NCBI GenBank assembly: GCA_937900875.1
Contig: CALCGD010000068.1
Coordinates: forward strand, 1-35,251
Length of the DNA stretch: 35,251 bases
Source of the DNA: an uncultured Flavobacteriales bacterium
Lineage (GTDB): Bacteria; Bacteroidota; Bacteroidia; UBA10329
Direction: 5' to 3'
Positions 3 through 30,932 of this stretch are shown piece after piece. Numbering within the stretch: the stretch's first letter is position 1; every line of letters begins with the position of its first letter. Below the pieces are notes generated by a model, which saw only the letters and a list, made by a program, of their open reading frames with translations, made no database searches and was not told the DNA's origin. The position numbers and the translations under genes are program-made.

Positions 3-677
3 AGGACGCTAGAAGGGGCAAGAGTAGAAGGGACAGATCTTGCTACTGGCTACACAGTTGGTATGGACCTAGATGCGGTGAATGATGCAATAGTTGACAA
101 TGCAGCCATTCGACTACAATCAAATGGAGATGCAGAGTTTCAACGAACGTTGGAAGCTTCGCCATCACGTGTTGTAATGCGCGCATTTGACCCCGTAACT
201 GGTGGTTCGCAGCCCGCTGGAATAACCTTTGTTCCTGACCCTTCCAATCCGCAAATTGTAGTGGACGGATGGTTGACTAAGCCTGGTGGTAGCTTTAGAA
301 TAGACCATCCGCTCGATCCAGACAACAAGTATTTGTATCACTCTTTTGTAGAATCGCCAGATATGATGAATATTTATAATGGTAACATCACTACCGACAC
401 AAACGGAGAGGCTGTCGTTTTTCTGCCCGAATATTTCACTGCGTTGAATAAGGATTTTCGGTATCAACTTACCGTGATTGGGTTGTTTGCACAGGTTATT
501 GTGCTTAAGGAGGTTGCAGAAAATCAATTTGTGATTAAATCAGACCAACCAAATATTAAGGTTAGCTGGCAGGTAACCGGTATTAGAAAAGATGATTACG
601 CAAACTTTTACCGAATGAAAGTGGAGGTCGAAAAAGATGAGGGCATGAAGGGTAAAAGGCTTTTTGTAAAGCCGTAA
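3..677 (+). CDS. C-terminal part of a protein with a conserved 'KYLYHSFVESPDMMNIYNGNITTDTNGEA..FRYQLTVIG' terminal domain, hypothetical (5' end outside window)
   Basis: Frame 3 is open from the window edge (RTLEGARVEGTDLATGYTVGMDLDAV...), so the ATG at 63 is probably internal. The C-terminal motif resembles a recurrent bacterial hypothetical surface/tail-type domain, recalled from memory. Confidence 0.75.
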   Translation, partial: RTLEGARVEGTDLATGYTVGMDLDAVNDAIVDNAAIRLQSNGDAEFQRTLEASPSRVVMRAFDPVTGGSQPAGITFVPDPSNPQIVVDGWLTKPGGSFRIDHPLDPDNKYLYHSFVESPDMMNIYNGNITTDTNGEAVVFLPEYFTALNKDFRYQLTVIGLFAQVIVLKEVAENQFVIKSDQPNIKVSWQVTGIRKDDYANFYRMKVEVEKDEGMKGKRLFVKP

Positions 678-24846: not shown

Positions 24847-26280
24847 TCATGTATCAGAGCCTATAAATTGTTCATTAAAATTTACCAAGTACAGCTTTTC
24901 TGAAGCACGGGTAATGGCGGTATAGAGCCAACGCACGTATTCAACACCTAACATCTCAGCAGTTAAATAACCTTGGTCTACAAACACCGCAGGCCATTGA
25001 CCGCCTTGCGCTTTGTGGCATGTGATGGCATAACCGAATTTGATCTGAAGCGCATTCAAATAAGGATCAGTGGCAATCTTCTTGGCTTGTTCTGATGCGG
25101 TTGGAATATCTGCATAACTCGCACAAACCGAGGTGTACAGTTGCTCCATGTCTGGTTCAGGTAGGGAAGGAGCTTCTACATGCAATGAATTGAGTAAGAG
25201 CTTAACATCCAAAGAGTCCTCATTCGGGTAGTCCATTAAACGCACGGTAGCATTCGCAAACCGAAAGCCATGCATTTCTTCGGTATAGCCCAACCTCATA
25301 ACCTCAATCATATCGCCATTGGCAATAAACCCAGCACCCGATCCTTTTGGAAGCCAGAAGTAGTTGTTCTTAACAACCATCAGCTTATCAGTAGAAGCAA
25401 TCTCGTCTTCCATGTATTTGATCCGTAAACGAATCTGCTGATTGAACTGGTTGGCGCTTTTGTTTGAACGCGTAATCACCATTGCACAGTCTTCGCCATA
25501 AAAGCTGTAGGCCGAATTCAATTCGTCCTCCAAATCGAGCATGTCAATCACCTTTATATCTGGGTAGTTGACTTTTAAAGCAATGTCTGATAGACCTTGT
25601 AAAAGCAGATTTCTGAGTTCGGTGGCGTTATTGAGAATTCCCGAATCTGCATCTTGCCGAACCACTTCGCGCAATTCGTGCTGCATTTCCCACTTAAAAT
25701 CGAAATTGGTTTGCAAAACTTTGCTGTCTAGCGCAGGGCTGTCTAAAGAACCTACTGGAGGTAATTGTGCGGTATCTCCAATTAAAATGAGCTTGCAATC
25801 CTTGCCATCTTCCATGAATTTCATCAAATCTGAAAGCAGGTTTTTAGACTGAATTTTGCCAGAACCAGTGTCTCGTGCGAGCGAAATCATAGACGCTTCA
25901 TCAACTATAATCACCGCATTCTTTCCACGATTCTTTCTAAGCGCAAACCGAATGTTGCCAAACTCATCGGTAGTTATTTGGTAAATGAATTTGTGAATAG
26001 TGAAAGCTCTTTGCCGCGTGTACGAAGCAAGCACCTTGGCGGCCCTTCCCGTAGGGGCTAGCAGGGCAAATTTCCTGTTCATCGATTTTAAGGTTTGCAC
26101 CACGCTAATAACCATAGATGTTTTGCCGGTTCCTGCATATCCGCGTAGAAGAAACACCTTCCCAATGTTCTCTTCTGTAAGAAACTCAGACAGCCGATAA
26201 ACGAACCCTTCTTGCCCGATAGTAGGCTTGAAAGGGAGCTCAGAAATAAGCTTATCGTAGGCGGTTTTTGGTGTAATCAC
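24847..26280 (-). CDS. RecD-like ATP-dependent DNA helicase / AAA ATPase
   Basis: Walker A 'LRGYAGTGKTSMV', 'APTGRAAKVL', Walker B 'VIIVDEASM', 'LILIGDTAQLPPVG', C-terminal 'ITCHKAQGGQWPAVFVD...RWLYTAITRASEKLYLV'. Confidence 0.93.
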   Translation of the reverse strand: MITPKTAYDKLISELPFKPTIGQEGFVYRLSEFLTEENIGKVFLLRGYAGTGKTSMVISVVQTLKSMNRKFALLAPTGRAAKVLASYTRQRAFTIHKFIYQITTDEFGNIRFALRKNRGKNAVIIVDEASMISLARDTGSGKIQSKNLLSDLMKFMEDGKDCKLILIGDTAQLPPVGSLDSPALDSKVLQTNFDFKWEMQHELREVVRQDADSGILNNATELRNLLLQGLSDIALKVNYPDIKVIDMLDLEDELNSAYSFYGEDCAMVITRSNKSANQFNQQIRLRIKYMEDEIASTDKLMVVKNNYFWLPKGSGAGFIANGDMIEVMRLGYTEEMHGFRFANATVRLMDYPNEDSLDVKLLLNSLHVEAPSLPEPDMEQLYTSVCASYADIPTASEQAKKIATDPYLNALQIKFGYAITCHKAQGGQWPAVFVDQGYLTAEMLGVEYVRWLYTAITRASEKLYLVNFNEQFIGSDT

Positions 26281-26427: not shown

Positions 26428-28420
26428 ATGAAAAAGATTTTACTCCTTACAATTTTAGCTGCTATTTCAACAGCATCAGTTGCTCAAAACGTTGGCATTG
26501 GCTCAACTAGTTTTGTTCCTAATTCGGATGCGATTTTGGAATTGCGATCCACTACTTCGGGGTTTCTAATGCCTAAAATGACTTTCGCTCAAATGAGTGC
26601 GATTGCTGGTCCTACTGAAGGATTGCTTGTGTACCAGTCTAATCTCACACCAGGGTTTAAGTATTTCGATGGATCTGCTTGGGTTCCGTTTGGTGGTTCA
26701 AGTGGAGGTGCTGACAATTTTGGCAGTCATGTAGCTGAAATGAATATTGCCTTGGACGACTATTGCCTTGGACGACTATTGGTTAAGTAATGATGGAGAT
26801 GCTGAAGGAATTAGAGTTTCAAACAATGGATATGTTGGAATTGGTACAGGATCGCCAACTGCTCCATTACATGTGGAAGGTGATGTGAGAATTGGAGCTA
26901 ACGGTTACATTGATGATGATGCAACGGTTGGTGGAGATGTGGATGACTGGATTAGACTGAATGGATATGTGGAGGTGAAAACGAATTCTGATGACCACGG
27001 CTTGGTTATTAGAGATAAGGACAATAATGACTACGCAGCCATCACCCAAAAAAATGGATGGAGTTATTTAAGTGACAATGGAGTTTCTGGATCATATTTT
27101 TTGAGAGGAAATGATGCTGATGTTGAAATTAGAGGAGACTTAGATGTTAAGGGAAGTGATGTGTACGATAGCAGTGGCGAAATAAGGGTTAGCGGAGAAG
27201 ATGATGTATTTATCACGATGGATTACAATGGGGATGACAACGATTCTCGTGCTATCCGTTTCGGAAAGAACAGTATGACGGCCCCAACTGAATTGATGAG
27301 ATTAACCGAGACTGGAAGATTGGGAGTTGGTCATAGCAGTCCTCGAGCTAACATTCATATTTATGGTAATAGCGCAAGTGGTTTTGTGCCAGCTGGTCTT
27401 GGAGCTGCAGCTGGGCCTGAACTCGCTTTTTCAAGAGGTGGTTTTGCTAATCCGGGAGCTAGTATTCAAATGATAGATTACAATGGGTACTCATCTGGTC
27501 TCTGCTTTAATGTTCACAGAGGAGTAAACTATGGAGGAGGTGGCACATTTGCAGATAACTGGCCTACTGATGTTGTTCAGGCAATGACCATTCGAAATAA
27601 TGGAAATGTTGGTATAGGTACCGCTGACCCAGCAAAATTGCTGCATGTGGCAGAATCAAGTGGTGGCAGTATCATGGTATCGAGAAATGATGCAAATACC
27701 AATTTGGGAGAAGTTTTGGGGGAGTTAGTGTTTGACAGTTCTGATGACACCACTCCTTCTACAGTAGATGGCAGCGCGGTAATCAGAGCAACTGCTTCAG
27801 AAAACCACGGAAACAGTAATAAAGGTGGTGAACTCTTGTTTTTGACCAAACAATCTGGGAATGGCGCAAATTCGGCTGCAACCGAAAGAATGCGCATCAC
27901 AAATAATGGTCGAGTAGGAATTGGAACAACAACACCATTGGCACAGTTACATACCAAGGGTTCTGTTCGTTTAGAAGGTTTATCTGGTTCTGGGTCTCGA
28001 ATGGTTGTTGCCGATGCCAATGGAGATTTATCTACCCAAGCCATTCCTGGCGGAAGTGGAGGTGCTTCTGCTTACGGTGTAAACGGAACAGGAACTCAAA
28101 ATACAAGCTCTTCATCGTTCTCTAACATCAACAGCATGAGTTTAAATTTGACTGCTGGAACGTACATTTTACAATTTAATGCTGAGGTAACTTCTAATAA
28201 TTCAAGCACGCTTGCTGAGTTTCTGTTTTTCGCAAATGGAGCCACAGTTTCGGCATCAGCACGTACAATAGAGCCAGATAATGCCGAAAACAAAACAGTA
28301 ACAGTTACTTGCGTGGTTACAGTAAGTTCTACGCAAACGGTTACCACACAATTTAGAAAGAGCTCTGGAAGCGGAAGTATAACCGTAGCAAACCGCTGCT
28401 TTACGGCTATCAGACTATAA
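26428..28420 (+). pseudogene. Surface/tail-fibre-like GIGT-repeat protein gene, frame-disrupted by a 16-bp tandem duplication (as assembled)
   Basis: ORF 26422-26790 (signal peptide, NVGIGSTSF, ends ...MNIALDDYCLGRLLVK*) and ORF 26747-28420 (...IALDDYWLSNDGDAEGIRVSNNGYVGIGTGSP...). Removing one 16-bp copy restores ...AEMNIALDDYWLSNDGDAEG... in one frame. Confidence 0.8.
26745..26781 (+). repeat. Tandem duplication, unit TATTGCCTTGGACGAC (16 bp)
   Basis: Two perfect copies (26745-26760, 26761-26776) followed by partial copy TATTG (26777-26781). Confidence 0.97.
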
Positions 28421-28446
28421 TATTCACATCCACCACCAATTGAATA

Positions 28447-28480
28447 CAAAAAGGTCGCTCTAAATAGAGCGACCTTTTGT
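28447..28480 (+). terminator. Rho-independent terminator
   Basis: AAAAGGTCGCTC-TAAATA-GAGCGACCTTTT, perfect 12-bp stem. Confidence 0.85.
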
Positions 28481-28494
28481 ATTTTAAACCCATT

Positions 28495-28731
28495 ATGTGG
28501 ATAGAAAAAGATAATCGATTAGTGGGAATTTTTGAGTTCAACGACTTTGGTGAGGCATTCGCCTTTATGACCCGAGTTGCCTTGGTTTCAGAAAAATTGA
28601 ATCATCATCCAGAATGGACCAATGTTTACAACAAGGTTGAAATTCGACTTTGTACTCACGATGCTGGAAATGTAGTCACAGCAAAGGATAGGACACTGGC
28701 TTCAATGATTGAAAGCATATATCAGCGATGA
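28495..28731 (+). CDS. 4a-hydroxytetrahydrobiopterin dehydratase (pterin-4a-carbinolamine dehydratase)
   Basis: '[51 protein letters not shown]' is the PCD family pattern. Start placed at MWIEKDNR because the TTG at 28477 lies in the terminator. Confidence 0.92.
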
Positions 28732-29150
28732 ACTATTCACTACTGTTTAAAATTGCGAATGGATTGGTAATTCCAGCTTGGCTTATGCTAGTGGCTTTTC
28801 CTAGAACAAAAATCACCAAAATCGTAGTCCAATCGTATTTGTATCCTATCCTATTGAGCGCATTGTATTTGTCGCTTTTCATTATTTCATGGGGAGGAGA
28901 AGGTGGAATGGACACCCTTGAAAACCTGAAAACATCATTCGCCAGAGATGAAGTATTGGTGCTCGGTTGGGTGCATTATTTGGTGTTCGACCTATTTATT
29001 GGCGCATGGATGGTCAGAGATGCAGAATCTCTTGCCATTCAACATTTAAAAATCGTTCCATCGCTAATTCTAACCCTGTTTGCGGGCCCTGTTGGGCTGC
29101 TTTCTTACCTCATCATTAGATGGACTATGACCAAAAAACTTACGTTATGA
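28728..29150 (+). CDS. ABA4-like (DUF4281) family membrane protein
   Basis: 140 aa. '[15 protein letters not shown]' and '[25 protein letters not shown]...[13 protein letters not shown]' motifs. Confidence 0.85.
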
Positions 29151-29219
29151 ACAGTGAAAACTGTTAGTAAGCCTACCGTTTTGTTAAAAACATGCGCTTT
29201 TAGAGGCTTCTATATCGTC

Positions 29220-29227
29220 TAACTTTG
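29220..29227 (+). promoter_or_regulatory. Putative -7 promoter element for parA
   Basis: TAACTTTG, exact TAnnTTTG, 23 nt before the parA ATG. Confidence 0.4.
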
Positions 29228-29250
29228 CTTTCCTAAATCAGCAGAAGAAT

Positions 29251-30051
29251 ATGAGCAAGATTATAGCAATCGCAAATCAGAAGGGAGGAGTAGGGAAAAC
29301 CACCACCGCCATTAATCTCGCAGCTAGTTTGGCTGTATTGGAGTATAAAGTGCTGTTGGTAGATGCTGATCCGCAGGCTAATTCAACTTCGGGCGTTGGG
29401 TTTGATCCTCGAAACATAAAGACAAGCGTATATGAATGTATTATTGGTGAGGCTGAACCGAAGGATATCATTCTTCATACAGAAACGCCAAACCTAGATA
29501 TACTTCCTGCACATATAGATTTGGTAGGTGCAGAAATTGAAATGATTAATCTACCGAATAGGGAGATGATGGTGAAATTGGTGTTGAATAAGGTGAAAAA
29601 TGATTACGACTTTGTGGTGGTGGATTGCTCTCCTTCTCTAGGTTTAATTACCGTTAACTGCCTTACCGCGGCCGACAGTGTTCTTATACCAATTCAGTGC
29701 GAATACTTTGCTTTAGAAGGATTAGGGAAATTGCTGAATACAATAAAGATTGTTCAAGCACGCTTAAATCCTGACCTAGAAATGGAAGGGTTGCTTTTAA
29801 CAATGTATGATCAACGACTAAGATTGGCAAACCAAGTAGTGGAGGAGGTGAAAATGCATTTCCAGCAATTGGTTTTTGACACGGTAATCGCCAGAAACAC
29901 CAAATTAGGCGAAGCACCAAGTCATGGTAAAACCATTATTATGCACGATGCGGCTTCTAAAGGAGCCAATAATTACCTCAATCTGGCGAGAGAAATCTTA
30001 CAGAAAAACGGTATGACAAGATTAAAAGAGAGCGAAAAAATATTGAGCTAA
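29251..30051 (+). CDS. parA: Chromosome partitioning ATPase ParA/Soj
   Basis: 'IAIANQKGGVGKTTTAINLAA' deviant Walker A, 'VLLVDADPQANST', adjacent to parB. Confidence 0.96.
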   Translation: MSKIIAIANQKGGVGKTTTAINLAASLAVLEYKVLLVDADPQANSTSGVGFDPRNIKTSVYECIIGEAEPKDIILHTETPNLDILPAHIDLVGAEIEMINLPNREMMVKLVLNKVKNDYDFVVVDCSPSLGLITVNCLTAADSVLIPIQCEYFALEGLGKLLNTIKIVQARLNPDLEMEGLLLTMYDQRLRLANQVVEEVKMHFQQLVFDTVIARNTKLGEAPSHGKTIIMHDAASKGANNYLNLAREILQKNGMTRLKESEKILS

Positions 30052-30932
30052 TGACAAAGACAAGAGCATTAGGCAGAGGACTTGGAGCGCTGCTCGATAA
30101 CCATGACGGAGATTTAACTTCAAAACCATTAGCTACCGATCCAGGAGCGGCTGGTTCAATAAGTGGTATTTTAATTTCAGAAATTGAGGCAAATCCGTTT
30201 CAACCGCGGTCTCGTTTTGACCAAGAGAAATTGGATGAACTCGCTGCTTCCATTACCCAACTTGGGATTATTCAGCCACTTACACTCAGAAAAGTTCGTC
30301 CTAATAAGTATCAGATTATTTCTGGAGAGCGAAGATTTAGAGCTTCTCAACTAGCGGGTTTAACCGAGGTTCCGGCATACATCCGTGTTGCAAATGATCA
30401 AACAATGCTAGAAATGGCCTTGGTTGAAAACATTCAGAGAGATAATCTTGATGCCATAGAGGTAGCCATCTCATACCAGCGCTTGATTGATGAATGTAAA
30501 TTGACGCAAGAAGCGCTTGGAGAACGAGTAGGGAAAAAGCGATCTACAATTACCAATTACTTGAGGTTGTTAAAACTTCCGCCTCAAATACAGAAAGCAA
30601 TTATGGATCGTGTGCTAACAATGGGGCATGCACGTGCCATCATCAATGTTGATGATGAGAATGAGCAACTCCTGCTGTTTAAGGAGATAATCAAGGGAGG
30701 CTTGTCGGTTAGAGCAGCAGAACAAGCAACACGAAATGCTAAGAAAGATTCTAAGCCGGCAAATACAGATTTGCCATTAGAGTATCAACGCATTAGAGAT
30801 AACGTAAAGCAGCAGTTGAATGCGGAGGTTAGCCTAAAGGTGAATTCTAAAGGGAAAGGAAGCTTTTCTATTGCCTTCGACAATGAAAAGGAGCTCAAGC
30901 GCGTTCTATCCATCTTAGATCTTTTGCCTTAA
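30051..30932 (+). CDS. parB: ParB/RepB/Spo0J family partition protein
   Basis: 'RALGRGLGALL', 'IEANPFQPRSRFDQEKLDELAASITQLGIIQPLTLR', 'ISGERRFRASQLAGL', 'MALVENIQRDNLDAIE'. Confidence 0.96.
   Translation: MTKTRALGRGLGALLDNHDGDLTSKPLATDPGAAGSISGILISEIEANPFQPRSRFDQEKLDELAASITQLGIIQPLTLRKVRPNKYQIISGERRFRASQLAGLTEVPAYIRVANDQTMLEMALVENIQRDNLDAIEVAISYQRLIDECKLTQEALGERVGKKRSTITNYLRLLKLPPQIQKAIMDRVLTMGHARAIINVDDENEQLLLFKEIIKGGLSVRAAEQATRNAKKDSKPANTDLPLEYQRIRDNVKQQLNAEVSLKVNSKGKGSFSIAFDNEKELKRVLSILDLLP

Follow-up and report, generated by a model that had tools for sequence, protein, structure and literature searches.

A gene for a predicted surface fibre in an uncultured Flavobacteriales bacterium is split into two open reading frames by a 16-bp tandem duplication. 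The gene lies in a stretch of 35,251 nucleotides, here called the window (GenBank assembly GCA_937900875.1, contig CALCGD010000068.1). The locus raises the question of whether the duplication is a reversible on/off switch of a surface protein, a loss of function, recent or old, or an error of the assembly.

Organisation of the locus

The positions of the gene, the duplication and the neighbouring features are given in Table 1.

Table 1. Features at and around the interrupted fibre gene (positions in the window).
Feature	Position	Strand	Basis or remark
Divergent helicase/AAA ATPase gene	24847..26280	-	Left neighbour, kept in all seven genomes with the gene at this place
ORF1, truncated N-terminal part of fibre-type surface protein, 120 aa	26428..26790	+	ORF reading; orthologue conservation
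ORF2, first GIGT repeat, beta-repeat modules and tip domain	26744..28420	+	+1 frame; ORF reading
Tandem duplication, 2.3 exact copies of TATTGCCTTGGACGAC	26745..26781	+	Frame-shifting, derived
C-terminal TNF/C1q-like jelly-roll tip domain	28058..28417	+	AlphaFold2, Foldseek
Strong hairpin with T-rich 3' arm	28442..28484	+	Fold of 28441-28490
Genes presumed to encode a pterin-4a-carbinolamine-dehydratase-like protein, a small membrane protein, ParA and ParB	28477..30932	+	Conserved right neighbours, synteny

The sequence contains two exact back-to-back copies of the unit, followed by the first five bases (TATTG) of a third. Tandem Repeats Finder reported the same tract with a period of 16, 2.3 copies, 100% match and a score of 74, by far the top of the 11 rows for the window, and the exact self-match at an offset of 16 covers 21 bases, far beyond chance.

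ORF1 starts with a signal peptide, MKKILLLTILAAISTASVAQ (identified by eye), continues into a conserved N-terminal domain of ~100 aa and ends in ...MNIALDDYCLGRLLVK*. ORF2 is open from just past the TGA at 26741 to its own stop, with no internal stop codon, and comprises 557 codons counted from the TTG at 26747. Subtraction of one 16-bp unit gives, by arithmetic, a single frame of 658 codons, in agreement with the ~660 aa of the original prediction, whose coordinates, unit and frames were likewise reproduced by the sequence, Tandem Repeats Finder and ORF reading. With no further stop in the 557 downstream codons, the duplication is, as had been claimed, the sole lesion in this copy of the gene.

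The two frames overlap at 26744-26790 and ORF2 begins with TTG, which would be compatible with production of both halves, either by a programmed +1 frameshift or by a separate start of a second protein. However, no slippery or RF2-like +1 site was seen by eye in the overlap, and the earliest ATG in ORF2, at 27218, is located well within the module region, with no convincing start upstream of it. In addition, ORF2 has no signal peptide, and the duplication is present in no relative (see below). A programmed frameshift was rejected on inspection of the overlap and of the ORF2 start positions, and it is scarcely conceivable that both halves are made.

Folding of the region past the gene gave -24.9 kcal/mol (z -9.6), and the hairpin found there is the probable transcription terminator of the fibre gene.

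The window is itself one contig (C68) of an assembly of 3.6 Mb in 355 contigs with 96% completeness, and the genome is therefore probably a metagenome-assembled genome. The fibre gene is chromosomal and syntenic between the helicase gene and parAB; the family names of the right-hand neighbours are assigned from the sequence and are presumptive. No phage DNA match for the locus was found in phage records, the single-unit junction had no match in IMG/VR, and no prophage genes were noted around the fibre gene. A prophage tail-fibre gene was considered and dismissed, as the gene stands in conserved chromosomal synteny, outside any phage gene cluster and without a phage DNA match.

Predicted gene product

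Pfam and NCBIfam gave no curated domain above cut-off. The repeat modules match the PHROGs tail-fibre families phrog_9942 and phrog_18345 (3e-20 and 9e-15, respectively), and the closest solved relatives by sequence are the mosaic adhesive trimeric (MAT) fibre proteins of Bdellovibrio, with phmmer values of 6.7e-6 for 8oml and 5.5e-5 for 8ond and further matches to 8on4 and 8ojn. A phmmer search of solved chains with the N-terminal stub found no match. Since AlphaFold modelled only the tip of the full-length protein well, the C-terminal 120 residues were folded alone. AlphaFold2 gave a jelly roll with a pLDDT of 93.4, and Foldseek matched this fold to the BC2L-C lectin, the PLTL lectin and the tip of Bd2734 (TM 0.64-0.84).

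According to PMC10769870, MAT fibres are trimers in which the signal peptide is followed by a conserved domain; their shafts are beta-helical, and their tips vary, with TNF-like ones among them. The protein studied here resembles those of Bdellovibrio bacteriovorus (PMC10769870; 8oml, 8ond, 8on4, 8ojn, 8okw) in being secreted, in the conserved domain directly past the signal peptide and in a beta-repeat shaft with sequence similarity to the solved chains; this shaft relationship is found by phmmer, the shaft model being of low confidence. Further common traits are interchangeable tips, including a TNF-like one (Bd2734), and several paralogues per genome. The exchangeable tip is represented here by a TNF/C1q-like fold, the sequence of which varies among orthologues. 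Unlike the MAT fibres, the present protein has a shorter shaft, no visible S74 peptidase domain and an N-terminal domain without a detectable solved match, and its host belongs to the Bacteroidia and is not a known predator. The tail fibres of phrog_9942 and phrog_18345 are similar in their repeat modules, whereas the present gene is chromosomal and syntenic and has no match in phage DNA. Taken together, sequence and model predict a secreted, trimeric-fibre-type adhesin with shuffled GIGT beta-repeats and a TNF/C1q-like, lectin-type tip, and the original description as a tail-fibre-like secreted protein was apt.

Orthologues at the same locus

The comparison set consisted of nine genomes of the genus, the own genome among them. 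The gene occupies the same chromosomal place in seven (the own genome, G000, and G001, G002, G003, G004, G005 and G008), with the synteny in G001 seen on the helicase side only, because the contig stops short of the other neighbours. Two genomes were left out: G006, in which no orthologue of comparable similarity is present, and G007, whose nearest copy has 55% identity over the N-terminal domain and other neighbours. The N-terminal domains of the six syntenic orthologues are 62-68% identical to that encoded in the window, and the helicase neighbours are 81-93% identical among themselves. Thus, the seven genomes represent distinct species.

A conserved domain of ~100 aa after the signal peptide (by eye) is present in all syntenic orthologues. 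They differ in the number and order of the modules and in the sequence of the tip, as is expected of a mosaic fibre.

Comparison with relatives had been proposed in the original prediction as a check on the duplication. In the nucleotide alignment across the lesion, the window has exactly 16 extra columns and the six others have none; hence, the duplication is derived. The same alignment showed neither the TATTG pair nor an array at the equivalent site in the six relatives. Four orthologues are intact single frames, of 793 (G003), 766 (G004), 459 (G005) and 490 aa (G008); a fifth is interrupted by a nonsense codon and the sixth by indels that cluster.

In the orthologue from G001, a conserved Glu codon is replaced by TAA at L020:1145-1147 (G001:C366), 14 codons away from where the equivalent of the window's lesion begins. 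Apart from this codon, the frame runs unbroken to the C-terminus, and the G005 protein aligns with it over residues 1-453 in one frame. The orthologue from G002 can be read through its first ~230 codons and again through its last 358. Over the intervening ~200 bp the frame shifts several times, and the small indels cluster in a single repeat module at L019:4330-4540 (G002:C187). This cluster could be due to decay or to a local assembly error of a repeat module. Because a badly assembled module could produce such clustering, the interruption in G002 is counted as less secure. The helicase gene next to the locus is an unbroken frame in each of the seven genomes, and in a tree of the helicases the three interrupted genomes do not form one group. 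As the three interruptions also differ in kind, they are separate events.

The tips were compared in the window (28058-28417), L019, L020, L021, L022 and L024. The three interrupted genes have one common tip subtype (FRKxSGSGxxxV), the intact genes of G003, G005 and G008 have another (IEIRCxK or IEVRCKK), and the end of the G004 protein is of a third kind.

Origin and age of the duplication

TATTG is found at both ends of the unit, the copies are exact and the relatives lack them, which is the pattern of a microhomology-mediated tandem duplication (spontaneous sequence duplication). The single-unit ancestor would have contained TATTG twice, 11 bp apart, and slippage or template switching between these 5-bp microhomologies would yield exactly this 16-bp duplication. 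It would have arisen within this lineage, or else within the sub-population represented by the assembly. The origin at the TATTG microhomologies put forward originally is thus likely, given that TATTG borders the unit and that the copies are exact. The core 19-mer of the duplication has no exact match in the genome other than these two copies; hence, the unit was not copied in from a paralogue or elsewhere.

For a census of tandems in the own genome, 310,647 bases were sampled, part of them masked as N, leaving ~0.29 Mb readable. The tract in the fibre gene is the strongest exact tandem in this sample, and no second out-of-frame exact tandem inside a gene was seen in it. The other tandems with a period that is not a multiple of three are three in number (periods of 8, 10 and 13) and all lie between ORFs.

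These data also bear on an assembly artefact, in which the true chromosome would have one unit, the assembler or a gap filler having joined two contig ends at the 5-bp TATTG and not over the full 21-bp overlap. The geometry, a 21-bp overlap with a 5-bp sub-overlap, fits this exactly. The draft is fragmented, with 355 contigs for 3.6 Mb, and genes of the fibre family are often found at contig ends, so that the family assembles badly. However, the tract of 37 bp is below read length and as such would not have confused the assembler; within the genome, the 19-mer occurs nowhere but at the two copies, and the sampled sequence has no comparable frame-breaking tandem. The lesion itself stands as originally described in this single draft of 355 contigs, and the assembly error that was offered as one of its explanations is rather unlikely, though it deserves more weight than any other rival considered here.

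As to its age, the downstream modules have pN/pS values of 0.12-0.38 against the relatives, and the N-terminal domain has values of 0.29-0.41. The similarity of the two ranges gives no sign of long decay. As pS is near saturation in these comparisons, pN/pS is a weak clock, and it is chiefly the lack of any other lesion that speaks for a recent event; a long-dead gene is expected to show more damage. An old pseudogene fixed in this species would agree with the independent interruptions of the same gene in related species, but the 557 downstream codons without a second lesion and the still low pN/pS make it very improbable. Hence, the event appears to be recent, one of the options proposed for it.

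Switch or loss of function

The frame shift would leave a secreted stub of 120 aa with no shaft and no tip, and thus an adhesin that would be off. The 21-bp homology left behind makes occasional reversion plausible, and the allele may accordingly be transient. This revertibility is what invites comparison with evolved phase-variation (contingency) loci, in which a unit expands and contracts at a high rate and so switches an adhesin, as had been suggested for this gene.

Some features do agree with a switch. The product would be a surface adhesin, the unit length is not a multiple of three, and the two-unit state offers 21 bp of homology for contraction. There are also precedents. According to PMC4022640, which cites Waite et al. 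(2001, 2003) for it, spontaneous sequence duplications in the pneumococcal genes cap3A, cap8E and tts lead to phase variation, breaking and restoring ORFs of capsule genes. As in those genes, a short tandem duplication breaks the frame of an ORF for a surface structure and is in principle revertible. Here, however, one allele in one draft genome is concerned, the product is a fibre protein where theirs are capsule enzymes, and switching has been observed in the pneumococcal genes but not at this locus. Similarly, contingency loci with simple sequence repeats, e.g. those of Campylobacter, shift the frame of a surface gene by the number of repeat units, whereas the present tract has two units only, no conserved array and a low expected forward rate.

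Against a switch, the conserved hypermutable array that marks a contingency locus is lacking, the six orthologues having neither an array nor the TATTG pair at the site. About 40 such 5-bp microhomologies are present in the gene, not far from chance, and switching off would depend on one of them. For units of 10-40 bp, the out-of-frame 5-bp microhomology pairs in the gene number 42, compared with 30.5 +/- 5.4 in codon shuffles, and the 42 include the pairs arising from the duplication itself and from the repeat modules. The density of 21 pairs per kb is within the range of the other genes in the window (12-27 per kb), and thus the site is not special. As for the rates, PMC4022640 expects reversion at <=1e-5 for an insertion of at longest 9 bp, and a review (PMC11868660) reserves the phase-variable label for high rates in both directions.

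Routine switching at the duplication is therefore not supported, and the reversible switch of the original prediction was not upheld: the relatives lack array and TATTG pair, none of the six has the duplication, and the microhomology density is ordinary. An evolved phase-variation locus is improbable here. The absence of the extra copy from the relatives, two of which are apparently broken in other ways, points to a loss that is easy or favoured and not to a built-in switch. Thus, the duplication is probably a loss-of-function allele of recent origin that could in principle revert. It would affect a MAT-like fibre gene that has paralogues and is lost repeatedly, and would be no dedicated switch.

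Recurrent interruption within the fibre family

The N-terminal domain family has 85 matches in the nine genomes. Leaving aside those that run into a contig end, the other members are open over 291 aa or more, and every short member is located at or close to the end of a contig. Of about 65 other members away from contig edges, counted over the nine genomes, not one is short in its open frame. Interruption is found in 3/7 genes at the syntenic locus against 0/64 elsewhere in the family (Fisher p = 6e-4), where 64 is approximate, the paralogues are non-independent draws and open-frame length as a measure of intactness misses late truncations in the comparison paralogues. With G002 dropped, 2/7 are interrupted and p = 8e-3. 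Most likely, therefore, to judge from these sequences, loss of this one syntenic fibre gene is unusually frequent in the genus. Such recurrence, with apparently unrelated lesions in three of seven species, is a point invisible from the window alone.

Loss of one fibre would be tolerated or favoured because paralogues remain, and possible drivers are phage pressure, predator pressure and a change of the surface to be bound. A bolder and doubtful extension is that the parAB-side fibre gene is repeatedly and independently switched off across the genus by whichever mutation comes first, twice directly behind the N-terminal domain. There would then be recurrent selection against one fibre, by phage, predator or niche, and short duplications would serve as temporary, self-reverting OFF alleles in the wild.

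If the loss of function is real, MAT-like chimeric fibres, known from a predatory bacterium, would also form a multi-copy, module-shuffling family in Bacteroidia not known to be predatory, one syntenic member of which would be lost far more often than the rest. The locus would then be a plain test case for short tandem duplications as temporary OFF alleles in natural populations.

Two further observations concern the family. In the own genome, four fibre paralogues with the N-terminal domain lie within 6.5 kb of one 13-kb contig (L118; G000:C270:6094-12592), which suggests a fibre gene cluster. At L125:2730-3436 (G006:C33), a start resembling the N-terminal domain leads into a collagen-like GxxGxx repeat and not into GIGT repeats; in terms of predicted sequence, similar N-terminal domains carry different shafts.
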